Shown here in pieces: positions 1,579 to 23,809 of a stretch of DNA of 23,809 nucleotides; positions within the stretch are counted from its first letter, which is position 1; every line of letters begins with the position of its first letter. The notes below the pieces were generated by a model. That model did no database searches and was not told the origin of the DNA. It was given only the letters and a program-made list of their open reading frames with translations. Source of the DNA: a virus. The position numbers were made by a program, and so were the translations under genes. The stretch spans positions 1 through 23,809 of the IMG/VR virus record IMGVR_UViG_3300034104_003870; one strand, given 5' to 3'.

Positions 1579-2442
1579 TTATTCTTTGACCACCTGAGCA
1601 CTGAGACTGCGAAGATTAAATTCGGCTTGATCTATTTTTAGATCTCCAGTGGGTTCAAACAACACTTCAAGAATGTACCAGAAATAGCCTGGTGGTGGTT
1701 GGTCAATCACTGTGCTGAACACAGTTTCAATTTCTGTCAACAATCCTGTGCCTGTGATACCATCAATCTGATACACTTTGCGACTCACAGTTTTGTCAAA
1801 GTCAAACAAGAAGTCTGGATTTATAGGGTCATTGTTGGGAAAGCCCACATACCTATTGACTTCCACAGTGTAGGTTAGATCTCCACCAGTGCTGCTGACA
1901 TAACTCATGATGTTGCTGAGTTGTGCAGAAATAAACACACGGTCAGTACCACCTGTCACAGTCACACGAGCATTTGAATCTGTTGAGTTTAATTGGTCGT
2001 TGGCATCGTACTCAATTGTGCCACCGGTAAGGTCATCACCTATGCCTGGATAACTTGCTGCTGTGCGAATAATAACAAAAGTGGTTGTGCATTGAACCAC
2101 ACCAATGGCACCTGATCCACCATTGTAGAATGTGTTGGTCCAGCCAGCTCCAAATGTGTTGTTGCCAGGTTTGAACGGTGCTGTTGGTTGTGCTGATGTA
2201 AAATTGTATTGAAATGTTCTGTCATCAATCTGTTCTGCACTGCTGCATGAAATAGGCGGCACATAGATTGATTCTGGCGTGGTGGAGCCGTAGGGACGAC
2301 GAAAGTTGCCTGTTAGGTATCCTGTTTCATAGGCACTGAAGCCTTCAAAGTTCTGTCCCAGGCCACCTGGGCCTGACAGCACATAGTTTAGGCCATCAAC
2401 CAGACCTTGTTGATCACCAGGCTCAATAGGAAATTGACTCAT
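1579..2442 (-). CDS. Beta-rich virion protein of unknown function
   Basis: A 287-residue protein. The ATG at 2442 was chosen because it overlaps the TAA of the upstream gene (TAATG), the coupling used elsewhere in this tail block; a longer in-frame version to 2496 would lie inside that gene. The sequence is rich in Thr, Gly, Asn and aromatic residues with alternating hydrophobic positions, as in beta-sandwich virion proteins, and shows no signal peptide or membrane segment. Cysteines are few. Its place between the nozzle-like protein and the repeat-rich coiled-coil protein suggests a tail-tip or fibre-associated component. I do not recognise a family; receptor-binding or tail-assembly roles are both possible. 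Confidence 0.8.
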   Translation of the reverse strand: MSQFPIEPGDQQGLVDGLNYVLSGPGGLGQNFEGFSAYETGYLTGNFRRPYGSTTPESIYVPPISCSSAEQIDDRTFQYNFTSAQPTAPFKPGNNTFGAGWTNTFYNGGSGAIGVVQCTTTFVIIRTAASYPGIGDDLTGGTIEYDANDQLNSTDSNARVTVTGGTDRVFISAQLSNIMSYVSSTGGDLTYTVEVNRYVGFPNNDPINPDFLFDFDKTVSRKVYQIDGITGTGLLTEIETVFSTVIDQPPPGYFWYILEVLFEPTGDLKIDQAEFNLRSLSAQVVKE

Positions 2443-4361
2443 TAGCGGTCGTCCTCCACCTGTGTATACTGCCACGTTGTGGCTGAACACATCCAAATGT
2501 CAGCGTTGCTGGTGTTTGAAATTTCAATGGCATGCACACGAAAAGCGTTTTGGTTGATCTGGCACCAAGGATTGTTGGTGTCTATCTCCATTTCAACAGG
2601 TGTTTTAACAGCAGGTTCTGATCCCACTGAGTTGGCGCCTTCCACTGTGATTGAAACATTGCCTGTTGATGGGTACTCAGGCAGTTCATTGTTGTTCATG
2701 TTTACTACTTCGGGCAGGATACGATGAACCATGCTCAAACTTGAATAGTTGGGCAAGACCTTGACATTGTCTCTGCGGAAACTTGATGCAATGTTGCCAT
2801 TGGGGTTGGCATTGGCTGTGAGAAAACTGTAGCCTTGATCTTTCATGACCAGTTGTTGATTGGTCAAGCCACGAGCATACACCACTGTTCTTGAACCTTC
2901 GTCAAATGTCCAGACAGGCAGGCTTGAGTCTGTGGTGTCTGACCAGATTGGTGATTCAGAAGCAAATGTAGCACTGCTTACTTCGCGTGGTGCGTTCCAG
3001 CAGTCCAGGTCATATCTATAACTAATCATCTTGTTGGGTACACCATTCACAATAGGGTTTAGAGCACTTGCGTATTCTGGCTTTGATGTGTAGTAGATTT
3101 CAACTTGGTTGCGTTGTGTGTTGACTTCCATGAATATTCGTTGAACATAGGCAGGATCCAGCTGATCAAACAACCAGTTTTTGAGTCGTTGATTGCCCAG
3201 TCCAGTAAAGTTCTGTCCATCAAACACCCACACATCGCGTGAGTCAATGCCATACACTTCTTTGTCAGTGTTGGCCCATGCATTGCTGGTCAACATACCA
3301 CGGCCCTGGTTGTAGAGTCGCACACCCAGAATAGGTGCTGATGTTGTGGTATAGTTGATTGGGCTAAAAACCACAGTGTCCCAGTACGAGCTTAGAAACA
3401 ACTGACCGTTTGATGGAAACGCATCCACACAGGTGCCACGCAAGGGCACTTCAAGTTGGTTGGCCACATTGGTCACAGTGGGTTGCCATGTTAGTGGTGC
3501 TTCGTTGAGTCCAAACGCTTGGCTCCATTGAACTGTGACAGGAAACTCCAGGATCTCATCGTTGATGTCTGTCACAGTTAGGTTGCCAGCCACAAGGATT
3601 GAGCCCACATTGGGTGTGTTGTAGATACGCATCCAACCAGCGTAATAACTCTTCCAGTTGGGGTTGTAGTTCCATTGAAACTTGGGTGCCACAGTACCGC
3701 CGCCTGGGAAAGCAGCACCTGGTATGGCCAAGTAATCTACATAGGCTGTGGTGCCACCTGTGACAGTGAACACACCATCATAGAATGTGTTCACATCTGA
3801 AATAACAATCTGCTCACCAGCAGCATAAGGAGTAGTCACTGCACTTGAGAATGTGAGTCGTTGTGTTGTGGGTGATTGATATTGAATGTCATCAATGTCT
3901 GCACTCAAGGTGTTGGAATACAACACCAGCACAGCAGCATCTTGATCAGGCAAGAACATTGGCGGGTTGATACTGTCATTGAAAAACGGCACAGTGCCGT
4001 TCCAGGCTTCTGTGATGTTGGTGCTTTGTGTGTAGCCTGTGAATGGCACACCACCAGGTGTGATGTCATACCAGTTGTCATAGCCATTGCTGGCCCACCA
4101 GCGTCCTTCTGTTGTGGCAGCAATGAACCAAAATTCACCATTGCGTCTAAATCCAGAACTCACAAATGTGGGTGTGCCAGGAATAAAATCCAGGATCTTT
4201 TGATCGCCAGCCATTGATCTGATGCCACGCACATCAGTTTCCACATTTTCACCTGCGTTGTATTCATTGGGTCCCAGTGCCGTTGATGGCACATCGGGTG
4301 AGAATGTCATCTTGGCAAATGGGACTCGGGCTTCTTCAAAACTTGATTTAATTTGTGCCAT
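2442..4361 (-). CDS. Large tail protein, nozzle/stabilisation-like (T7 gp12 or P22 gp10 type by context)
   Basis: A 639-residue protein. The N-terminal part has the pattern NVETDVRGIRSMAGDQ and then Trp-, Gly- and Asn-rich repeats such as FWFIAATTEGRWWASNG and VWVFDGQNFTGLGNQ, as in beta-propeller-like tail nozzle proteins of short-tailed phages. Residues near 165-230 form a Thr/Gly/Val-rich block (YAAGEQIVISDVNTFYDG) resembling small beta-domain insertions in phage structural proteins. The start has AGGAAC about 6 nt upstream, and the preceding gene ends 4 nt before it. Size, composition and position after the fibre and lectin genes support the call, but family assignment is inference; P22 gp10-like stabiliser and T7 gp12-like nozzle are the closest models I know. 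Confidence 0.8.
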   Translation of the reverse strand: MAQIKSSFEEARVPFAKMTFSPDVPSTALGPNEYNAGENVETDVRGIRSMAGDQKILDFIPGTPTFVSSGFRRNGEFWFIAATTEGRWWASNGYDNWYDITPGGVPFTGYTQSTNITEAWNGTVPFFNDSINPPMFLPDQDAAVLVLYSNTLSADIDDIQYQSPTTQRLTFSSAVTTPYAAGEQIVISDVNTFYDGVFTVTGGTTAYVDYLAIPGAAFPGGGTVAPKFQWNYNPNWKSYYAGWMRIYNTPNVGSILVAGNLTVTDINDEILEFPVTVQWSQAFGLNEAPLTWQPTVTNVANQLEVPLRGTCVDAFPSNGQLFLSSYWDTVVFSPINYTTTSAPILGVRLYNQGRGMLTSNAWANTDKEVYGIDSRDVWVFDGQNFTGLGNQRLKNWLFDQLDPAYVQRIFMEVNTQRNQVEIYYTSKPEYASALNPIVNGVPNKMISYRYDLDCWNAPREVSSATFASESPIWSDTTDSSLPVWTFDEGSRTVVYARGLTNQQLVMKDQGYSFLTANANPNGNIASSFRRDNVKVLPNYSSLSMVHRILPEVVNMNNNELPEYPSTGNVSITVEGANSVGSEPAVKTPVEMEIDTNNPWCQINQNAFRVHAIEISNTSNADIWMCSATTWQYTQVEDDR

Positions 4362-4364
4362 TGG

Positions 4365-4646
4365 TTATGTTCCTGCTTGTTCGCGACCTGAAGTAGCGTA
4401 TAATTCTTGTGCTTGTTCAGCTGTGAGATTGTTGATCCAACCTGTGCTGTTCCACACATGACCATAATACACAGTGGCATTGGTATGTGTGGGATCAAAT
4501 TTTGTGCTGTCGCGAGTTTGTGCGGCAGCATCGCCCACAGGGCGTTGTCCTGCAGCAATGGTTGCAAATGTTGCCTGATCTATCTCACGCCACTGATAAC
4601 CACGCAGCGTGCCATCTTGTAAAACACAACTCAATCTATAATACAT
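4365..4646 (-). CDS. Small virion-block protein of unknown function
   Basis: A 93-residue protein with ATG at 4646 and AAGGA upstream (GATCAAGGATAAAAGATG). It begins MYYRLSCVLQDGTLRGYQWREI and contains an HTNATVYYGHVWN stretch and an amphipathic C-terminal segment. It has no membrane segment or known motif. It stands 3 nt before the nozzle-like gene and directly after the lectin-like gene, so it is likely made with the tail proteins, perhaps as a fibre-associated factor or chaperone. No family recognised. Confidence 0.75.
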   Translation of the reverse strand: MYYRLSCVLQDGTLRGYQWREIDQATFATIAAGQRPVGDAAAQTRDSTKFDPTHTNATVYYGHVWNSTGWINNLTAEQAQELYATSGREQAGT

Positions 4647-4649
4647 CTT

Positions 4650-5405
4650 TTATCCTTGATCATTGTCACATGTGGTAGCACCATTGGCACCATCCCAATG
4701 CACCAACTGTGTGGTAAATTCTTCAACAACAAAAGGTGCTGTGGGCACAGTTAGACTTCCTGAAGCAGGATACAGTGCTGTGCCAACCGTGATATTGAGT
4801 TCATCAAAATACACAAATTGACTGCCATCAGAGCCTTGAGCATTGCCAAAAGTGATTTGTTGGCCGCCACTGTTGTCAGCAAAATTTCGAGTGCCGCCAC
4901 CAGAACCTTGTGTGGTCTGTTGTGTGCCATCTACCCAGAAAGAGATAGTGGTGCCTGACCTTTGTATCACTATCCAATACCAGGTGTCATTGCTCCAGGT
5001 AAAGTTGCAATAATCTAAGTCGGCCTGGCCGCGGGCAAAAATGTTTAACCCGTCGCGAGTAGTAGCATTGAAGTTTGGTCCAAAACGGAATCCCAATCCA
5101 CCGATGGTGTTGTTGGACATAATGTCTTGCCAACGGTTGGTGGGTGTGCTGGAAGTCATTCGAGCCCAAAAACTTATGGTAAAATCACCAGTGTTCACAT
5201 CCATAAATGTGCGATCTCCTGACGATGCATAAAATCCACTGGTGGTAGCCTGGTTTGAATCAGTGTACATGCTGGCAGTGCCAAACTGGAATTGTGCTGT
5301 TGACAATTCAGCAGCACCCTCAGCAGTCCAAGTTGTCAGCGGATTGGTAAATCCTCCTGCGGTCCAGGCACGAGACAACCAGGCTGTTTTTGCTGATCCC
5401 AACAT
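4650..5405 (-). CDS. LamG/concanavalin A-like lectin domain protein
   Basis: A 251-residue protein that is almost entirely one jelly-roll lectin-like domain. Diagnostic stretches are GDFTISFWARM (about residues 73-83), NDTWYWIVIQRSGTTISFWVDG in the middle and VYFDELNITVGTALY near the C-terminus, the usual strand order of LamG/concanavalin A-like (laminin G type 3) domains. Such domains bind glycans or are structural parts of phage fibres. The ATG at 5405 overlaps the stop of the fibre gene (TAATG), so the two are translationally coupled and probably work together in host recognition. There is no signal peptide, which fits a virion component. The glycan target cannot be read from sequence. Confidence 0.85.
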   Translation of the reverse strand: MLGSAKTAWLSRAWTAGGFTNPLTTWTAEGAAELSTAQFQFGTASMYTDSNQATTSGFYASSGDRTFMDVNTGDFTISFWARMTSSTPTNRWQDIMSNNTIGGLGFRFGPNFNATTRDGLNIFARGQADLDYCNFTWSNDTWYWIVIQRSGTTISFWVDGTQQTTQGSGGGTRNFADNSGGQQITFGNAQGSDGSQFVYFDELNITVGTALYPASGSLTVPTAPFVVEEFTTQLVHWDGANGATTCDNDQG

Positions 5406-9403: not shown

Positions 9404-10579
9404 TTAGACATAGCTGTTGCCTGCACCAGCGTTGATACGCTGAACGAAGCTGGCTCCACGCGGTGCACTTACTGCTGCACCAGTTGTTGAGATGTTGTGC
9501 AACACGCCAACGCCTGCTGGGTTGCGAACAATCAATGTACCTTCCATCAAGAACTGATCCAATGAAGCGTCAGCATTGCTGAATACTTCGTTGTTGGGTC
9601 CTAGATCGCGGAGTGAACCCCACTGTACAACATCTTCGTTCAAGAAGTAGATCTGATCGCTTACACCAGCACTGTCCATTATCCAACTATCATATATCTC
9701 ATATGTGTAGTTGAAGTCACCTTCGTAAGTCTGGATTGTGTCGCCACGCTCCACATTACGACGGTTGATGCTGGTGTTGCTGTTCACGATGTTGTCAGAG
9801 ATCATGGTACGCAGGCTGGTTGGAACAACCATGGTACGGATCTTGGCATTGTAACGCTGTTCAGCAGTGGTGACCAATTGCTTGTAAATCACAGGCTGGA
9901 ACACTTGGTTAGTGAAAGTACCTGTGTAGAACTGGCTACCGTCAGCTTGAATGTTCAAGTTACCTACGTTGGCAGTGCTGCTGTCTGTAGATTCGTTGTT
10001 GGTGTTTGTGGTGATGTTGCCGATAGCAGCACCGCTGGGGTTGAAACTGTGTGTGCCAGCAAAAGCATCCAGGCTACCCATACGACGACCGCCGTCTTGA
10101 GCTGTGCCTGGGTTGGTAATTGCTGTACCAGTTTGGCCGCCGTACTTGGTACCAATTTGGTCGCCACGCACAAGTTGCATTTCCACATCGAACATCAATT
10201 CGATCAACTGCTTTACCTCTTGGTAGGCCTGCGGATCTCCGCCCGCCTGCATAACAGCACGAGCAGTACCACTAGCAGCGATAGTTGTTTGGAAGATCTG
10301 TGTGTAGTTGCCCAAGTTGTAACGGCTGTTACTCTCTGCGTTGCTTGTGCTAACTGCGGCACCTTCTTTCACAGCTTGTGCTGAAGGCAAGCGATAGATG
10401 TCGTCAGTCCACAATGGAAGTGTGCTGTTGACCTTGCGCTTTTTGCTCATACACATGTTGAGCACGGGGGTATCGTCTTTTACACGATTGGATACATCTA
10501 GATCTAAGTCTTTGACAACGATGTCAGCACCATATGCTGTTGTACCATTACCAATTTGACTGGTTGTAATTTCTGCCAT
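9404..10579 (-). CDS. Major capsid protein (DUF5309/N4 gp56-like, HK97-type)
   Basis: A 391-residue protein. The N-terminal pattern DDTPVLNMCMSKKRKVNST (residues about 35-53), followed by PLWTDD, EGAAVSTSNAESNSRYNLGN, TQIFQTTIAASGTA and a long helix with IELMFDVEMQLVRG, matches the layout I know for the DUF5309/N4-gp56 group of capsid proteins (TPF-type start, a W-x-TD element, then VSGT and a spine helix). The C-terminal half has SQFYTGTFTNQVFQPVIYKQLVTTAEQRYNAKIRTMVVP and ends in a short GAGNSYV tail. Gene order portal-scaffold-capsid supports it. AAGGAG lies 7 nt before ATG 10579, a stronger ribosome site than most here, as expected for an abundant protein. Confidence 0.92.
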   Translation of the reverse strand: MAEITTSQIGNGTTAYGADIVVKDLDLDVSNRVKDDTPVLNMCMSKKRKVNSTLPLWTDDIYRLPSAQAVKEGAAVSTSNAESNSRYNLGNYTQIFQTTIAASGTARAVMQAGGDPQAYQEVKQLIELMFDVEMQLVRGDQIGTKYGGQTGTAITNPGTAQDGGRRMGSLDAFAGTHSFNPSGAAIGNITTNTNNESTDSSTANVGNLNIQADGSQFYTGTFTNQVFQPVIYKQLVTTAEQRYNAKIRTMVVPTSLRTMISDNIVNSNTSINRRNVERGDTIQTYEGDFNYTYEIYDSWIMDSAGVSDQIYFLNEDVVQWGSLRDLGPNNEVFSNADASLDQFLMEGTLIVRNPAGVGVLHNISTTGAAVSAPRGASFVQRINAGAGNSYV

Positions 10580-12238: not shown

Positions 12239-14518
12239 TCAGTGCCCATAATCTTGGGTCTTGCCCATTGCTATGGCCATGTAGTTGAGTTGTGTGTCTG
12301 GGTCAAGTCCTTGTGTTTCAGCAGTGATTTGTTCTGCTTTGACAGCATTGAGTGCTGCCACGCTGAGGTCTTTCTTTTCTGCTGGGCTAGGTTCTTTTTG
12401 TCCAGCAGCAGCCTTGCCAGATTCAATCATGGCTTTGATTTCTTCATCACTGGGCAGATATGTGTCAGCATCTTTGACACCCAGGATATACAGTGTTTCA
12501 CTGAATGGTCGCTTGATCTTTTGGTACACTGTTTCATTCAGCGTACCTTGTGCTACCATGCCTTGTGTTACTGCATAAAGATCTGTCTGACACTTCTGAA
12601 TCAGCTGCTGGCGTCCAATTGCGTTTTCTTGGCTTTGCATGCCCAGGGCCAATTCAATCTGAATGTGCTTGCGATCAGCCAGTTCCATGGCGTCCCAACG
12701 AGTGTAGTCCATAAACTCAGACTTGCTGTCAGGGTGGAACTTGGCAGCCAGGCGCTTGACACCATGGTCATCGCCGTATTGTATCAGAGTACGCCATACC
12801 AAGTAGATTGCTTGCTTGAGTCCATCCGCAGCATTGCGTACTGTGTTGTCTTGAATGATCTGGTTTGGTGTCAGTGCCAGTTGTAGTTTGACACCTGAGT
12901 TGCCGGGTGCCATAACTTCTGGATTGAATGTGTCCTGTGGTGTGGTCATACCAACCATGGCCATTGTGTCCTGCTGGATACGAGTCATGGCCACTTCCAA
13001 GAACTGGAGATTGCCTGCTGGAGGTGGCATTGGGTAAATGTCTTTGGCAGGATCAAATTTTGAATCCAGGATAAAGATGGCTGCTTCGCCGTCCTGCATC
13101 ATTTCAAAGTCCACACGGTCTGGCTTGACACCAATGCGTGGTGTTGCTGTCAGCAGGCCCAGTTGAATTTCTGCTCGTGCTGCTGATGTTTGGTATTCCT
13201 GCATGGGAATCACTGATTCAGCAATGCTCATACCGTAGAAGTTGCCAGGCAATGGTTTAGGACACATGTTGGCCACAGGGATAAACTCCACTTCACGGGC
13301 ACTGATAATGTAACTGCCACTATAGATCAGTTCAACCAGTTCCAGTTCACCATCACCATCAATGTCATATCGGTTCCACACAGTCACAACAGTGATCTGG
13401 CGGCTGTCTGGATCTGCTGATGCTGCACTTGAAACTGGCACACCCATAACAGGTACACTGTCTCTAGCGTGAATGGCCAGGTTGTTGAGCACTGAACCTG
13501 CTTGGTACGCACCGTTCATGTTGTATTCAGCGTGGCGTTCAAATTCGCTTAGATTCAAACCCGGATACAGTTCTGTGGCTTCCTGAATGGTCATGGGATC
13601 GTAGTAGCCGCAGAAGGGTTGATCTTCCATCTTGGGCACTGTGGGATCACAGATCCAGTAGTGTTGTGCGATAGGGTGGAACTTGATGTACAGGTTGTAG
13701 CCTGTGAGTTTGTATTTGGCTGTGTAGATTGTGTTGCGAGCAATGGCGTCATTCAACACAGACTCTTCACCTTCCAGCTGAGCTTGCTGAGCCATGTCCT
13801 GCATCTGAGTGGTATCGTCCAGGAATTCTTCTGAATCACTCATGCCTGCTATGATTGAATCCAGCATGTTGCGGCTGTTGTCTGCACTGACCTGCGGCAA
13901 GTTTTGTTGCACTTCTGCCATCACAGCTTCCATGTCAACTCCTGTGCGTCTGCGCATTTGTTGCACAGCATTCATGCCAGAATCTCGTGCTTGTTGTTCA
14001 AAAGCCAACAGTTGATCTGCTGTGCCCTGTGTGTCAACATAACGCACAATGGGTTCACGCACAGGCTTGATCATCATCATGCCGTTTTTGTGCATGTTGG
14101 CGTCCATGATCCAGCGTTCCATAATGAAATGCGGATCATTCATTTCATTGATCACATGACTTACCATGTTGGTGGCCTGTCGTGCTGCTTCTGCGTCAAA
14201 TTCGTTTTCAGGCACAAAGTCAAAGTTTACTTCACCATTGGGTGCAATGCCTTTGGCAATCACAGCAGTAGCATAATCTACCACAGGCTTCACACTAGGG
14301 TGAATATAATCTATGCCGTTAACGGGTGCTGTTGAGTCTGTGACTGCCAAACACAGGTAGTGGTAGTCTGACGCACGGTTCACAGCGTTCTTGGTGCCTA
14401 GATAACGCAGGTAAGATGCCATCTTGACATCCATCAGGTTCTTCATTCGCACAAAGTTGGCATTGATTTTACGGTTTTGGTTGATTCTCTCAACCGGGAT
14501 GTTTTTGATATCCAGCAT
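12239..14518 (-). CDS. Portal protein
   Basis: A 759-residue protein, the size of P22- and N4-type portals (about 725-765) and longer than T7-type connectors (about 535). The N-terminal region has RYLGTKNAVNRASDYHYLCL, then HPSVKPVVDYATAVIAKGIA; the middle has the wing and stem pattern with LVELIYSGSYIISAREVEFIP, MCPKPLPGNFYGMSIAESVIPMQ and TSAARAEIQLGLLTATPRIGVK. The stretch NFYGMSIAESV-x-x-MQ is typical of large portals, before the channel helix. A Gln/Asn/Ala-rich C-terminal part may form the barrel. It forms the dodecameric DNA entry ring that docks the terminase. AAGGAACG lies upstream of ATG 14518. Confidence 0.92.
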   Translation of the reverse strand: MLDIKNIPVERINQNRKINANFVRMKNLMDVKMASYLRYLGTKNAVNRASDYHYLCLAVTDSTAPVNGIDYIHPSVKPVVDYATAVIAKGIAPNGEVNFDFVPENEFDAEAARQATNMVSHVINEMNDPHFIMERWIMDANMHKNGMMMIKPVREPIVRYVDTQGTADQLLAFEQQARDSGMNAVQQMRRRTGVDMEAVMAEVQQNLPQVSADNSRNMLDSIIAGMSDSEEFLDDTTQMQDMAQQAQLEGEESVLNDAIARNTIYTAKYKLTGYNLYIKFHPIAQHYWICDPTVPKMEDQPFCGYYDPMTIQEATELYPGLNLSEFERHAEYNMNGAYQAGSVLNNLAIHARDSVPVMGVPVSSAASADPDSRQITVVTVWNRYDIDGDGELELVELIYSGSYIISAREVEFIPVANMCPKPLPGNFYGMSIAESVIPMQEYQTSAARAEIQLGLLTATPRIGVKPDRVDFEMMQDGEAAIFILDSKFDPAKDIYPMPPPAGNLQFLEVAMTRIQQDTMAMVGMTTPQDTFNPEVMAPGNSGVKLQLALTPNQIIQDNTVRNAADGLKQAIYLVWRTLIQYGDDHGVKRLAAKFHPDSKSEFMDYTRWDAMELADRKHIQIELALGMQSQENAIGRQQLIQKCQTDLYAVTQGMVAQGTLNETVYQKIKRPFSETLYILGVKDADTYLPSDEEIKAMIESGKAAAGQKEPSPAEKKDLSVAALNAVKAEQITAETQGLDPDTQLNYMAIAMGKTQDYGH

Positions 14519-14926: not shown

Positions 14927-15642
14927 AGCGTGACTCCTGTTAGACCAGCCAGCAAGGCTGCTACATCTTGTCCGCGTGTGCTGCCGCGTGTGCCATGATA
15001 GTGCAAGATGCGTGTGTGCTGTATGGGAAAACTGTTGAACTGTGCGTGTGCTGCCAGTTCTGGCAGTGTGGTGCCTGTGGGTGCTTGCCAGTTCAGTTCT
15101 GGGTGGTGTGCGTCTTCAAATGTGAGTCCTTGACTCCAGAACATTGCGTTGAATATGATCTGCTCTTGATCCCAGATATCCATACGCCAATTGGCTGCTA
15201 ATTCATCGCCCACAGCCCAGGTCTCAGCTGACATTGTGTGCGGATGATAACGCACAGCAGCATTGAAGTAGTTTTCAAAGCCGTGGTCCTGTGGTGGGGT
15301 TGACCAGTTGAACAAGCGGTATTGATCAAATCGTCCAAAAATTTCAGTGGGCTTGAGAAACACAGTGTCACTGTCAAGATACAGCACATTGCAGGGTTCG
15401 CTGTGCCATAGGTCGCGGATGCGTTGCCAATTGCTGCGAAACATTTCAATACGGTTTTCAGCTGGCTCTGTGAACACAACGGGTTCCCAGTCACCACGCA
15501 AGAATTTCTGGGCTGATGCCAGGCTGTATCTAAACATTGTGTCATAGTCTGCTGTGACGCTGTCATCAGCACAGGGTTCAATACCAAAGCGGTGCTCAGT
15601 TTCACGGACTTTACAGTTGGTCCAAACTACATAGTTTTTCAT
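14923..15642 (-). CDS. Glycosyltransferase, GT-A fold (GT8-like)
   Basis: A 239-residue protein. The signature is VLYLDSDTVFLKP at residues about 86-98, a hydrophobic strand leading to the DxD motif (Asp90-Ser-Asp92) that binds a metal and the nucleotide-sugar diphosphate in GT-A enzymes. Downstream are FNAAVRYHP, WDQEQIIFNAMFW (a conserved DQ element of the GT8 group) and a C-terminal LHYHGTRG, whose His often completes the metal site. The enzyme should transfer a sugar from a nucleotide-sugar donor; donor and acceptor are not readable. It overlaps the methyltransferase gene (ATGA) and lies between terminase and portal, so it probably acts late, perhaps on virion proteins or host surface glycans. 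Confidence 0.85.
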   Translation of the reverse strand: MKNYVVWTNCKVRETEHRFGIEPCADDSVTADYDTMFRYSLASAQKFLRGDWEPVVFTEPAENRIEMFRSNWQRIRDLWHSEPCNVLYLDSDTVFLKPTEIFGRFDQYRLFNWSTPPQDHGFENYFNAAVRYHPHTMSAETWAVGDELAANWRMDIWDQEQIIFNAMFWSQGLTFEDAHHPELNWQAPTGTTLPELAAHAQFNSFPIQHTRILHYHGTRGSTRGQDVAALLAGLTGVTL

Positions 15643-16295
15643 TTTGGTTTCTTTATGATCAAAATTTGGTCATCAGCACGACCACCCTTGTGTCCCAGGT
15701 GTTGGTTTATGCCCACAGTGACATCTGGACCCAGCCAACGTAGTATGGTTTCACGCAGTTTTTGCATGCTGTCTGAACTTTCCACATCTTCAATGTAGTA
15801 CACACCACCCTCAGCCAGGGCAGGCCAGTAGTTGCGGAATGTGAGGAATTGACTTTGCCAATCGTGAGCACCGTCATCCAGGATAATGTTGAATGGTTCA
15901 TCAAACTCCACTTGCTGGCGTGTTGAATCAATACCAAAGTGTAGTTCAATCTTGGGGTCACTCTCTAAATCAGCTTGCCAGGGTCGAGTATCATTCCAAC
16001 CGTTTCGCAGGTCAATGCCAGCAATTTCGTACAGGTAAAAATACTCTGTCCACAGTTTCATACTAGCACCTGTCATCAAGCCAATCTCCAGCATGCGACA
16101 AAACTTGCGTGCTGATTCAAAATTGGCTGCATAGAAATCAATGTAACTGTGAACAGTGCCCTTGTCAGAGAACTGTTCTACTATCTCTCCCACAGTGTTG
16201 ATGTTGTAGTGTGCAATAAGATCCAGATAGATCTCCTGCATGCTCTTGTCTATTCTTTTCCAGGGCTCTGGTCGGTATATTGAATTTGTGTTCAT
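15639..16295 (-). CDS. Class I SAM-dependent methyltransferase (TylF/cephalosporin-hydroxylase-like)
   Basis: A 218-residue protein with the class I methyltransferase motifs in order: LEIGLMTGAS at residues 69-78 (motif I, S-adenosylmethionine site), GIDL at 93-96 with the ribose-binding acidic residue, IILDDGAHDW at about 137-146 (motif IV; DDG-x-H is typical of the TylF/macrocin O-methyltransferase and cephalosporin-hydroxylase-like group) and GGVYYIEDV at 163-171. Members often methylate sugars, which fits the glycosyltransferase that follows with an ATGA overlap. The ATG at 16295 overlaps the previous stop in the same way. Likely it methylates a sugar or glycan; DNA is less likely as no base-flipping NPPY-type motif is seen. 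Confidence 0.85.
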   Translation of the reverse strand: MNTNSIYRPEPWKRIDKSMQEIYLDLIAHYNINTVGEIVEQFSDKGTVHSYIDFYAANFESARKFCRMLEIGLMTGASMKLWTEYFYLYEIAGIDLRNGWNDTRPWQADLESDPKIELHFGIDSTRQQVEFDEPFNIILDDGAHDWQSQFLTFRNYWPALAEGGVYYIEDVESSDSMQKLRETILRWLGPDVTVGINQHLGHKGGRADDQILIIKKPK

Positions 16296-16627: not shown

Positions 16628-18238
16628 TCAAGCATCTGGATTATAACTGCGCTTCCAGGCTGGCAACTTGTCTTCAACCCGGCGAACATAACGATCACGC
16701 TGTGCTGCCATTCGTTGTTGTGGTGTGCGGTTGTCCCAGGGTTCAGCAATGCCTTGCAGTGCTGCCAAGTAGGCGTAGCGGGCTGAGTCTATGCAGTCGT
16801 CTGGATCACTGAAACGACCCTTTTCATCCACGTGATAGTTCTGTGCTTCGTTCAGAAACTCTGTGCAGTTCTCATTGATGTAGAATGTGCCAAACTCCAG
16901 ACTCTGTCGCATGGCATTGATACCATAACTCTTGTGGTTGCTGCGTCGACCTTCAGAGTCAGGTGGATTCAGGATAGCACTCTGAACCACATTGAGTTCA
17001 TACTTTTCAAACAGTTGACGGATACTATCACTACTCATTGTGTAGCGTCCAGGTGTTGATGCATCAGCAGGCAGCACAATGGGTGTGCCAAACACTTCAG
17101 GGCGGAGCAAGTGGTTGATGTATTGGCTGGGCACTGCTTCTTCAACACCCTGAATCACAATCTGTTTGTGCAACCAGAATGTTTCTTCCCACGGATCCCA
17201 GTAGGCCAAGGTGATCACTGTTTTGTCGTTGACCAGTCCTAGATCCAGTGCAATGACCCGTTGGATATTTGGCATTTCGCGGAAGTTGAAATCACTAGGT
17301 TTATAGGTTGGCCAAGAGCGAAGTTGGAAAACAGCACCCTTGCCCATGATAGGCCGCCCTTGGATACGAGCCTCGCGTTCGTGCGGAAGATAATCTCGCT
17401 CCAGTTGGGCTCTGGTTGAGGCAAGTAGGAAGGGCTCTCCCCAAGGGTCATATTCGGGCACATCGTCCCAACTGACCCTAATATAGTCATAGCCCGACTC
17501 ACGATTCCAGAACTTGGAGACGAGTCCGTTAAGGCCTTTAAGCGGGGTAAAACTGCAGAGAACCATGCCTTGTGTTGTTGCAGTTCGGGTGACAATCTCA
17601 GAGAAGAAGTCATCTGGTGGTTGTTCATCAAATACCGCCAAGTCCAGTTTGAAACCCTGCAACTGGCGGACCTCCTGTGTGTAGTTAGCAAACAGCAAAT
17701 AACTGCGTCCACCAGAGGCGTGCAGTATCTCACAGCCTATGCAGTTAGCACCATCATTGCGCATGGTATCTGTCACAATGGCTGCACGTGGTATAGCACC
17801 AGTGCCCAGTTGTTGTTGCAGTTTGACATCGGGTGTGCCCAACAGTTCTTGTTGTAGCACAAGAGCAACCTGGCTCCAACCTTCACCAGCAACCATCACT
17901 GTGACAGGCCGGTCAAAGCGATGGCCTTGCCACCAGTCTGGATACTGTCCAGTAAGGTGCATGGCAGTTTCATAGCAGGTGCTTACTGTTTTACCAATAC
18001 GGTTGGCAGCAAGAATACCTCTACGGTCGTTCTGGGTAGTGAAGAATTTCAGCTGGTGTGCAAATGGTCTGAAGTATCGCAGTTGATTGAACTGCATGTC
18101 ATCAGCCACAGCAGTCACCAGGTCTTGTAGGCGTAGTTGTTGGTCTGTGGTCAGTGTCACATACTGAGCAGGCTCAATGTCGTGCTGATCACAAACCCAA
18201 CGCACAGCTCGACGCATTAGAACGCTGGGATTGATCAC
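16628..18238 (-). CDS. terL: Terminase large subunit
   Basis: A 536-residue ATPase-nuclease that cuts and pumps phage DNA into the prohead through the portal. The Walker A loop is AANRIGKT at residues about 77-84, the Walker B strand with catalytic acid is LAVFDEQ at 200-206, and coupling motif III is SFTP at 229-232. The nuclease part starts at VIALDLGLVNDKTVITLAYWD (Asp332 and Asp338) and ends with DPDDCIDSARYAYLAAL, giving the usual acidic metal cluster. Length is normal for the family. The start is GTG at 18238 with GGAG 8 nt upstream (GGAGTAAGTCGTG); the region is just after a small gene's stop. Confidence 0.96.
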   Translation of the reverse strand: MINPSVLMRRAVRWVCDQHDIEPAQYVTLTTDQQLRLQDLVTAVADDMQFNQLRYFRPFAHQLKFFTTQNDRRGILAANRIGKTVSTCYETAMHLTGQYPDWWQGHRFDRPVTVMVAGEGWSQVALVLQQELLGTPDVKLQQQLGTGAIPRAAIVTDTMRNDGANCIGCEILHASGGRSYLLFANYTQEVRQLQGFKLDLAVFDEQPPDDFFSEIVTRTATTQGMVLCSFTPLKGLNGLVSKFWNRESGYDYIRVSWDDVPEYDPWGEPFLLASTRAQLERDYLPHEREARIQGRPIMGKGAVFQLRSWPTYKPSDFNFREMPNIQRVIALDLGLVNDKTVITLAYWDPWEETFWLHKQIVIQGVEEAVPSQYINHLLRPEVFGTPIVLPADASTPGRYTMSSDSIRQLFEKYELNVVQSAILNPPDSEGRRSNHKSYGINAMRQSLEFGTFYINENCTEFLNEAQNYHVDEKGRFSDPDDCIDSARYAYLAALQGIAEPWDNRTPQQRMAAQRDRYVRRVEDKLPAWKRSYNPDA

Positions 18239-22580: not shown

Positions 22581-22808
22581 ATGTTTATCACTGTTCAGAC
22601 CATATATCGTCGACGACGCACAGATCCTGCCAGTTGGCACTACGGCATCACGCGAACACAACCCTTGGATCCCGAGGTTGTGGCTTGGTATCAACGCTGG
22701 CTTCAAACTCAATCTGCCAAGGAGTTCCAGCACACAGCCGATTCCAACGGCCCAGCATTGCTTCGGGTAGATCTCGCCCGTGTGCCAACTGATCAATCAT
22801 GTCTGTGA
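22581..22808 (+). CDS. 75-residue basic protein, antisense overlap with the next minus gene
   Basis: The frame from ATG 22581 encodes MFITVQTIYRRRRTDPASWH, then DPEVVAWYQRWLQ and ALLRVDLARVP near the end. The ATG with a GTAAATA box 4 nt upstream is preferred over an earlier in-frame start at 22542. The last 161 nt lie opposite the end of the minus gene at 22648-23052, and both frames read like protein there. No family recognised. Confidence 0.6.
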   Translation: MFITVQTIYRRRRTDPASWHYGITRTQPLDPEVVAWYQRWLQTQSAKEFQHTADSNGPALLRVDLARVPTDQSCL

Positions 22809-23052
22809 GTATGTCTTCGGGTGAGTAGTATTCACCGCGTCTGCTTTTGCGGAAGTCTGCCATGGGAGTACAGAACCATGCACCCAGGTCAGCATCTATC
22901 TGTGCTATGCTCACAATGTTTTCTGCTATGTCAATCAACCACTTCAGCAGTCGTTGATGTTCTTGATGATCCTGTCGGATGTACACAGTTGCGTATTTCA
23001 CACCTGGTCTTGGTTCCAGGGTCTTGCGAGATCGATAATAAAAAGTTGCCAT
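22648..23052 (-). CDS. Unknown protein with hairpin-enclosed ribosome site
   Basis: A 134-residue protein (MATFYYRSRKTLEPRPG, YIRQDHQEHQRLLKWLIDIAE, ADFRKSRRGEYYSPEDIL, TPWQIEFEASVDTKPQ). No known motif. The ATG at 23052 follows a 9-bp stem whose loop holds the ribosome site. Its 3' 161 nt overlap the plus gene ending at 22808. Confidence 0.72.
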   Translation of the reverse strand: MATFYYRSRKTLEPRPGVKYATVYIRQDHQEHQRLLKWLIDIAENIVSIAQIDADLGAWFCTPMADFRKSRRGEYYSPEDILTDMIDQLAHGRDLPEAMLGRWNRLCAGTPWQIEFEASVDTKPQPRDPRVVFA

Positions 23053-23097: not shown

Positions 23098-23403
23098 CTA
23101 CATGGTGGCCCAACTGCGAGATTCATAACTGATTTGATCCCAGTGATCAATCAAGTTGTTGCTGAGAAACAAACATTGAGTAGGCGTCATAGAATCCCAA
23201 CGATCATAGTCCCAGCAGATGTCTCGCATTTGTCCCAGTAGTCGGCCATCAAGTGCGTGTTGGTTTGAGATTCCACGCAGCCAATACTTGGTGGCTTGAA
23301 CCCATTGATCCTGTGTGAATGCCTGATTGATTTCCCATCTGAGTTCAGGTGTTAGGTTGTCAAGTTCAATGTGTGCTTGTTCAATAATATGGTATATTTT
23401 CAT
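23098..23403 (-). CDS. Small unknown protein near the right edge
   Basis: A 101-residue, Trp- and Asp-rich, mostly helical protein (MKIYHIIEQAHIELDNLTPE, DICWDYDRWDSMTPTQCLFL). ATG 23403 is chosen; an upstream in-frame TTG at 23415 is less likely. No clear Shine-Dalgarno is seen. It follows an inverted repeat at 23420-23448. No family recognised. Confidence 0.72.
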   Translation of the reverse strand: MKIYHIIEQAHIELDNLTPELRWEINQAFTQDQWVQATKYWLRGISNQHALDGRLLGQMRDICWDYDRWDSMTPTQCLFLSNNLIDHWDQISYESRSWATM

Positions 23404-23419
23404 ATTTGTTTGCAATAAT

Positions 23420-23448
23420 ATATCAACTCAACTTCGTTTCGTTGATAT
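23420..23448. repeat. Inverted repeat upstream of the 101-residue gene
   Basis: ATATCAAC (23420-23427) and GTTGATAT (23441-23448) are exact inverted copies 13 nt apart. The site lies between the terminator and ATG 23403, where an operator or a 5' leader hairpin would be expected. Confidence 0.6.
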
Positions 23449-23461
23449 GTTCTTCGTTAAA

Positions 23462-23481
23462 AACAGGTCTAAAGACCTGTT
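23462..23481 (-). terminator. Rho-independent terminator at the end of the structured region
   Basis: On the minus strand AACAGGTCT and AGACCTGTT form a 9-bp perfect stem with a 2-nt loop, followed by TTTTTAAC (23461-23454 side). An overlapping alternative stem, AAAGAC with GTCTTT (23471-23487), is mutually exclusive with it. Confidence 0.7.
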
Positions 23482-23524
23482 GTCTTTATAACTCGAACCT
23501 CCAATAACAAAGAAGATCAAGTAA

Positions 23525-23615
23525 TCGATGAACACGAAGCCGTGAGAAGGCAAAATGTAATACAGTCTAAAAAAAACCGATTACACGCCTTCCCACTCTG
23601 CTTCATGCTCATTGA
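23525..23615 (-). ncRNA. Large imperfect hairpin, possible structured RNA
   Basis: The arms TCGATGAACACGAAGC (23525-23540) and GCTTCATGCTCATTGA (23600-23615) pair; inside, GTGAGAAGGC (23542-23551) pairs with GCCTTCCCAC (23587-23596), and TGTAAT (23556-23561) with ATTACA (23580-23585), about 32 bp in all. The minus transcript keeps more pairs: two plus-strand A-C mismatches become U-G pairs there, leaving one C-A mismatch. The apical loop contains eight T on the minus strand. A terminator follows at 23462-23481 on the same strand. Family not recognised. Confidence 0.5.
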
Positions 23616-23657
23616 GCACTCGACCCATTCAAGGGCTGAACAGATTCACGAAATGAC

Positions 23658-23783
23658 TTACCGTAGAGACCGTTGACTATCTTCTACTCTACACCAGCAT
23701 TGCTGGCTCATCGAGGCCGCCTCCTGTGTTGCACTTATCCGTAAACATTCGTGCGGAGTCGGATCCTTTTGCCCCGTTATCAT
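23658..23783 (-). CDS. Doubtful 41-residue reading frame
   Basis: ATG 23783 has AAGGATC just upstream and opens 41 codons (MITGQKDPTPHECLRISATQ start, Cys- and Ser-rich end). The region is rich in short palindromes such as CCAGCA-A-TGCTGG and may be RNA instead. The frame has no recognised family, and no other good gene is seen from 23404 to the right edge. Confidence 0.2.
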   Translation of the reverse strand: MITGQKDPTPHECLRISATQEAASMSQQCWCRVEDSQRSLR

Positions 23784-23809
23784 GATCCTTGTTTTCTATT
23801 TTCTACTAT

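Follow-up and report, generated by a model that had tools for sequence, protein, structure and literature searches.

Structured RNAs that adjoin a protein gene are known from several settings. The HEARO or omega RNAs of IscB and TnpB are about 300 nt in length and lie beside a protein gene in mobile settings, and the RNAs of type III toxin-antitoxin systems consist of short tandem repeats ahead of the toxin gene. Large phage RNAs of unknown function are likewise a known phenomenon. Among them, GOLLD and ROOL belong to phages and prophages, measure some 650 to 800 nt, and lie often, though not obligatorily, near tRNA islands, according to PMC12286853. The same source (PMC12286853) describes predicted pseudoknots in ROOL, for which no protein partner is known, and reports RNA-only complexes for ROOL, GOLLD, and OLE.

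Here, we describe RNA-1, an element of about 300 nt found directly behind a small protein gene, OrfA, in phage contigs. We put the probability at roughly 0.55 that RNA-1 is a new family of structured phage RNA that is co-transcribed with OrfA and acts in trans with it as a ribonucleoprotein. The family and its pairing with OrfA are well supported, whereas the expression of RNA-1, its binding by OrfA, and its function are what we infer from these.

The virus fragment and its terminal region

The window, 23,809 nt in length, is the full 23.8-kb fragment of an IMG/VR virus record. Its long open reading frames (ORFs) are nearly all on the minus strand, and RNA-1 lies at the contig end, upstream of the terminase, portal, and head genes (Table 1). 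The nearest annotated relative is MW202484.1, a 41.8-kb circular podovirus record with 52% identity in the terminase and 62% in the head protein. Assignment of the window to a T4-like or large myovirus was rejected, the nearest annotated record being that of a podovirus. A baseplate-wedge-like domain (4650 to 5405, minus; PHROGs 3545 and 13163, E of 6e-19 or better) is present although this relative is listed as a podovirus. Between the terminase and the portal is a methyltransferase-like gene (15639 to 16295, minus; PHROG 21658, E of 1.5e-21); a blastp comparison with L058 and further RNA-1 contigs turned up no equivalent gene. The ORF at 23098 to 23403 had no homologue among the viral contigs.

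A sequence-only reading of positions 23404 to 23809 had called the region gene-poor and proposed that it encodes, on the minus strand, a phage noncoding RNA of unknown class built around a 91-nt hairpin (23525 to 23615). Only two ORFs of at least 50 amino acids touch the region's edge (23098 to 23415, minus; 23327 to 23491, plus), and the hairpin is real. Its minus-strand fold reaches -47.5 kcal/mol against a mean of -19.7 for 200 dinucleotide shuffles (z of -8.6, 0 of 200 as good), and the plus strand reaches -29.7 (z of -6.5), so the strand preference claimed for it holds as well. The base of the hairpin extends further on both sides (Table 1); the fold of 23510 to 23630 is worth -61.5 (z of -9.9), and the whole 406-nt region scores a z of -6.1 on minus and -3.9 on plus. 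Two palindromes that had been pointed out are both present, TGCTCATTGAGCA at 23606 to 23618 and the one that we name H3. A terminator was also described, and its stem, AACAGGTC/GACCTGTT, does exist, but in place of 9 bp followed by TTTTT on the minus strand there are 8 bp, a 4-nt loop, and only 3 T; a simple terminator scan placed the terminator on plus, not minus.

What of the proposed RNA class? Rfam 15 at gathering thresholds gave no match in the window or in seven relative loci, including L058, and subthreshold matches in the window, L058, and 11 further loci were to weak and mutually inconsistent families only. Together with extensive compensatory changes across 13 distinct copies, the window's included, this supports the proposal of a noncoding RNA of unknown class. 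The hairpin is the 3' domain only, however, and a better conserved core lies upstream of it.

TABLE 1 Coordinates of features in the window and of a second RNA in related contigs
Feature	Position	Strand	Details or basis
Large terminase	16628-18238	minus	
Portal	12239-14518	minus	
Major head protein	9404-10579	minus	
RNA-1, HMM-matched extent	23517-23802	minus	HMM trained without the window
Conserved core (H1, H2, P3, H3, H4, pseudoknot)	23639-23789	minus	Alignments and covariance models
Hairpin H1	23761-23788	minus	5-bp stem GGATC/GATCC, 18-nt loop with GGCAAAAG
Hairpin H2	23721-23758	minus	Outer CTCC/GGAG, inner GCAC/GTGC, asymmetric bulge AACACA
Pseudoknot 5' strand GTTTACGGA, H2 loop	23738-23746	minus	Strand-swap test
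Pseudoknot 3' strand TTCGTGAAT, directly behind P3/H4	23644-23652	minus	Strand-swap test
Junction stem P3, 5' strand GATGA	23708-23712	minus	Permutation p of 0.00015, 10 sequences, L164 kept although its strand was mislocated
Junction stem P3, 3' strand TCATT	23652-23656	minus	One base shared with pseudoknot strand
Hairpin H3, palindrome CCAGCATTGCTGG	23694-23706	minus	Relatives differ in length and sequence
Hairpin H4	23663-23692	minus	GTAGAG/CTCTAC, 18-nt loop TAGAAGATAGTCAACGGT with near-invariant ATAGTCAA
Small hairpin H5, CCC-TTGAAT-GGG	23624-23635	minus	Seen by eye; relatives have small hairpins here too
Long 3' hairpin, U8 in loop	23514-23626	minus	Folding
TTTTGCC in 3' hairpin	23549-23555	minus	Possible long-range partner of GGCAAAA (23767-23773) in H1 loop
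Terminator-like hairpin, weak U-tract	23462-23481	minus	Sequence, folding, terminator scan
Second downstream inverted repeat ATATCAAC/GTTGATAT	23420-23448	minus	Sequence
Second RNA	L047 4086-4300, L090 1566-1777, L029 3380-3581, L084 249-441, L085 1628-1821, L002 4334-4522, L008 2969-3149, L027 1337-1516, L009 2174-2340, L143 2723-2909, L135 3336-3528	plus	nhmmer

Homologues of RNA-1

RNA-1 was found in 15 phage contigs, representing 13 distinct sequences. With the window's minus strand as the sole query, a copy was recovered in L058 at 4183 to 4471 (E of 6e-9); as in the window, it precedes the terminase, here by about 5.5 kb. Comparison of the two yielded a core motif, AGTANNNNATAGTCAANGNTCT, which occurs in 35 IMG/VR stretches; by HMM, the whole element is present in L058's contig and 10 others (E of 8.4e-8 or better) and absent from the remaining 24. 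With the window left out of its training set, an HMM recovers the window with an E of 1.9e-24; leaving out L058 as well gives an E of 5e-19 (both by nhmmer).

A search that used OrfA alone returned 10 loci, five already known and five new (L197, L198, L199, L200, and L201). RNA-1 lies directly behind OrfA in L198, L199, and L200; L197 is cut inside RNA-1, and the L201 contig stops where OrfA does. When these five new contigs are kept out of training, a covariance model places RNA-1 exactly behind OrfA in L198 (E of 6.6e-6), L200 (0.0016), and L199 (0.0019), all of which outrank three short motif matches (E of 0.016) that share the pattern used to fetch them. The same model gives the L197 copy, cut by the contig end, an E of 0.015, level with those motif matches. 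On sequence alone, a 10-sequence profile missed both L198 and L199 (no match, or one with an E near 1); they were first recognized by their fold, and only afterward did the covariance model, which had not been trained on them, pick them up.

Other searches came back nearly empty. Among 50,697 phage records, there was no direct DNA match to the window end, the L058 copy, or the L168 core, and a single scan of a collection of bacterial and archaeal genomes turned up just one match, by chance (L191). The first motif patterns tried for RNA-1 returned only L058's contig plus chance matches. Matches of a longer nhmmer query in L002 and other loci were set aside, as they fall in the coding gene at 22648 to 23052 and not in RNA-1.

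Architecture of RNA-1

RNA-1 is predicted to fold into a compact pseudoknotted core, in which the loop of H2 would pair behind the P3/H3/H4 junction, followed by a long 3' hairpin. The window lacks the 5' end of the unit, as its contig stops about 20 nt before H1. The window nevertheless has the 18-nt H1 loop, the two-step H2, the 18-nt H4 loop, and the H2-loop pseudoknot by which RNA-1 is defined.

To briefly describe the individual elements, H1 has a stem that varies in sequence and carries compensatory changes, with 96.7% of cells paired; it was found in 13 of 14 regions and then separately in the 14th (L174). Its loop is 18 nt in nearly all copies and ends in GGCTAAAG, the form seen in most relatives, or something close to it, such as the window's GGCAAAAG. 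P3 encloses the variable hairpin H3 plus H4, which is paired in 97 to 100% of cells. The H4 loop motif is replaced by ATAGCCAA in L198, and L200 deviates from it. In the minimum-energy fold of the window sequence itself, the GGG of H5 is part of the long hairpin instead. A comparable long 3' hairpin, often with a U run in its loop, is present in all 13 sequences examined, and by eye the relatives have similar tandem terminator-like hairpins after RNA-1. An RNAalifold pairing of GGCTAAAGGA with TTCCTTTGGC was rejected; it shows hardly any compensatory change, and several of its pairs are broken in the window.

A long-range contact between the H1 loop and the 3' hairpin, GGCTAAA:TTTAGCC in relatives, is suggested by the sequences. 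The window has changed on both sides and L166 at one position; there is a mismatch in L164, and the pairing is partial in L163, L199, and L200.

Selection on the fold

In 12 aligned cores, standard pairs fill 83.9% of cells, versus 64.6% in shuffled alignments, and 24 of 29 pairs show change on both sides. The covariation score of 0.536, compared to 0.188 for shuffled alignments, is reached by none of 500 shuffles, and slid versions attain at most 0.167. Shuffle controls are generous with related sequences, but the slid control retains relatedness. For the 10 cores that were found without OrfA, 90.5% of cells are paired, 21 of 29 pairs show change on both sides, and the score is 0.579 (slid versions at most 0.110; 0 of 500 shuffles as good); the window's outer H2 stem is out of register in this alignment.

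The pseudoknot, a helix of 7 to 11 bp between the H2 loop and the strand just behind P3, was found in 13 of 13 sequences examined. Its sequence differs greatly between phages, as in AACTTACACA/TGTGTAAGTT, GGTTTTCTG/CAGAAAATC, and ACTTGATC/GATCAAGT. Strands from the same phage score a mean of 18.9, and strands swapped between phages score 10.7; none of 20,000 permutations reaches the observed sum, with or without L170, a near relative of L168. Shuffle tests of the pseudoknot in single sequences were not significant for the window (p of 0.31) or L166 (p of 0.34, with the region mis-set) and gave p values above 0.09 for L163, L164, and L174. When the search was unconstrained, the best helix in the window was another one, incompatible with H2. 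The predicted H2-loop helix of the window is supported by the swap test despite this result. Stem P3 was subjected to a permutation test of its own (Table 1).

Every homologue has the same sense as OrfA, and of the two strands it is the OrfA-sense one that folds more stably in 12 of 13 sequences, the exception being L177. These observations bear on whether the good folding of the region could be incidental to a role at the DNA level, for instance as a packaging site or an origin of replication. The region does contain inverted repeats and an A8/T8 tract, as such a site might, but the defined strand relative to OrfA, the better folding of that strand, the covariation of the pseudoknot, and the varying orientation relative to the packaging genes leave this explanation with almost no credence.

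Could the conservation simply reflect a reading frame? In 8 of 12 contigs, the OrfA frame stays open across the H1 anchor, in one shared phase, and translation may enter RNA-1 in many of these phages. In the other 4 of 12, it is in another phase or stops before the anchor. The fold is kept in all of them, which argues that selection on the RNA is independent of the frame. Comparative alignment shows RNA-1 to have a common predicted fold that has been under selection. Phage genomes have little space for noncoding DNA, and RNA-1 keeps near-invariant loops and a covarying pseudoknot in two lineages; such an RNA must earn its place.

OrfA and a proposed ribonucleoprotein

OrfA is a family of ORFs of about 110 amino acids that, in contigs reaching far enough, end just before or inside RNA-1. 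In all 14 contigs that extend past the core, RNA-1 is directly behind OrfA. An OrfA HMM run across all loci collected finds 16 contigs, every one an RNA-1 contig or cut there (two are cut by the contig end), and elsewhere only four matches with an E of 0.36; none of the 16 was shown to lack RNA-1. The window is the sole RNA-1 contig without OrfA because its contig ends about 20 nt before H1. Physical linkage of the two is thus shown at the level of sequence. OrfA is basic, with K+R exceeding D+E in 12 of 12 sequences compared, and its AlphaFold2 model is helical (pLDDT of 80.7, pTM of 0.65). It has no Pfam or PHROG family match, its model has no PDB match with an E below 2.5, and searches of 50,697 phage records and of plasmids gave no match.

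A small basic protein strictly linked to a compact RNA with conserved unpaired loops argues for a ribonucleoprotein. In the mechanism that we propose, OrfA and RNA-1 would be transcribed together, OrfA would bind RNA-1, and the complex would act in trans during infection. Positions 23517 to 23802 (minus) of the window would be the RNA half, and the protein half, OrfA, would lie upstream, cut off by the contig end. Several observations count against this explanation: Pfam, PHROG, and PDB structure searches recognized no RNA-binding domain in OrfA, RNA-1 is rare (see below), and where the OrfA frame continues past the H1 anchor, as it does in 8 of 12 contigs, its translation may disturb the RNA.

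The main rival to the ribonucleoprotein is regulation in cis, with RNA-1 as a 3' or intercistronic element at which OrfA would bind and regulate its own message or by which the stability or expression of neighboring genes would be set. RNA-1 comes immediately after OrfA, often overlaps the end of its frame, and is followed by hairpins and further genes, as one would expect of such an element. The downstream genes differ between contigs, however, and an element of some 300 nt, complete with a pseudoknot and conserved loops of 18 nt, is bigger than one would expect for autoregulation; we consider this rival unlikely, though it is one to be taken seriously.

Might RNA-1 work alone, as a homo-oligomer or cage of the kind reported for ROOL and GOLLD, with OrfA a mere linked passenger? 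The precedents of ROOL, GOLLD, and OLE, as given in PMC12286853, and the elaborate pseudoknotted fold and phage location of RNA-1 fit this idea, which the strict adjacency of OrfA in 14 of 14 contigs makes improbable.

Distribution and possible mobility

RNA-1 occurs in two phage lineages. Terminase-module genes are common to the window, L058, L162, L164, L174, and L177. A second lineage is made up of L168/L179/L183, L198, and L199. L220, the contig of L179, has a different terminase, portal, and head protein, plus a tape-measure protein, and the contigs of L198 and L199 carry homologues of several of these genes. In the window and L058, RNA-1 points the same way as the terminase module; in L162, L164, L174, and L177, it points the opposite way. 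This varying orientation makes RNA-1 look like a cassette rather than a fixed part of an operon. The genes downstream vary too: OrfB or an HNH-like gene follows in some contigs, and neither is found at the window's position.

RNA-1 is rare. It was present in 0 of 40 records in one set, 1 of 43 (L058) in another, and 13 of 42 in a third, where all 13 came from the 15 records selected because they carry RNA-1 or OrfA and the remaining 27 had none; many of the surveyed records are short fragments, which makes absence weak evidence.

The HNH endonuclease-like gene of L220 is at 2392 to 3045 (plus; PHROGs 1872 and 826, E of 3e-11). It has homologues in L162, L168, L170, L174, and L183, in several contigs is separated from the upstream RNA-1 by a few hundred bases, and is possibly linked to the spread of the cassette.

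An HNH-like gene after RNA-1 in L220 and its homologues in several RNA-1 contigs, along with an OrfA frame that enters the RNA in most contigs, bring to mind a self-splicing intron, another ribozyme, or a remnant of one, with OrfA as an exon or an intron-encoded protein. RNA-1 is unlikely to be a self-splicing intron: none of the 16 contigs with OrfA was shown to lack RNA-1, which leaves no intron-less allele among them, and no Rfam intron or ribozyme model matches RNA-1. Nor do the genes behind RNA-1 keep an order that would mark them as one exon. Taken as a whole, we regard the intron or ribozyme explanation as very improbable.

A more far-reaching form of the ribonucleoprotein proposal is that OrfA and RNA-1 make up an undescribed complex that is passed as a cassette from one phage to another, unrelated one and targets the host in trans, for instance to take it over or to counter its defences. 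We put this forward tentatively, as a possibility that falls short of even odds.

A second structured RNA nearby

A second conserved structured RNA, about 160 to 215 nt, occurs in relatives of the window and, where it could be placed, lies some 5 to 8 kb upstream of the terminase (Table 1). A long stem closes it, and inside is a hairpin followed by a near-invariant CTGCGTTTA. Compensatory changes are again seen, with 95.8% of cells paired and a score of 0.572 versus 0.186 for shuffled alignments (0 of 500 shuffles as good), and there was no Rfam match in L002, L009, L027, L029, or L047. L058 at 3491 to 3649 (plus), just upstream of OrfA and RNA-1, and L063/L065 at about 3110 to 3250 (plus) share a related stretch that resembles it (nhmmer E of 7e-7 between them and 0.16 to L008). 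One phage, L058, may thus carry both RNAs. A second unlisted RNA in the same neighborhood suggests a hotspot for RNA genes in these phage genomes.

Comparison with known systems

We rate RNA-1 as a new RNA family with a partner protein. The literature surveyed, mostly the openings of abstracts and with few subscription journals represented, contained no description of it. Like the type III toxin-antitoxin systems, it links a small protein gene to a pseudoknotted RNA, but RNA-1 is a single 300-nt unit behind OrfA, with no tandem repeats. With HEARO and the omega RNAs it shares a structured RNA of about 300 nt adjoining a protein gene. RNA-1 has no Rfam match, however, and OrfA, at about 110 amino acids, is all-helical and has no nuclease domain match; in place of a RuvC or HNH effector beside the RNA, as with IscB and TnpB, there is an HNH-like gene further downstream in some contigs.

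OLE, according to PMC12286853, is a structured noncoding RNA that acts in a ribonucleoprotein, as we propose for RNA-1, but it is bacterial and about 600 nt; RNA-1 lacks an Rfam match and OrfA a Pfam family. The Rfam covariance models of GOLLD, ROOL, and OLE do not match RNA-1. ARAGORN found no tRNA or tmRNA in the window and no tRNA in 24 relative loci, among which only L058 carries RNA-1. Overall, RNA-1 resembles GOLLD and ROOL as a large structured phage RNA and differs from them in its length of about 300 nt, the lack of an Rfam match, the lack of a tRNA in the window, and its place behind OrfA in 14 of 14 contigs. It adds to such RNAs a family absent from Rfam 15 and a candidate partner with no Pfam, PHROGs, or PDB-fold match, a defined two-component system that makes the role of large phage RNAs testable.
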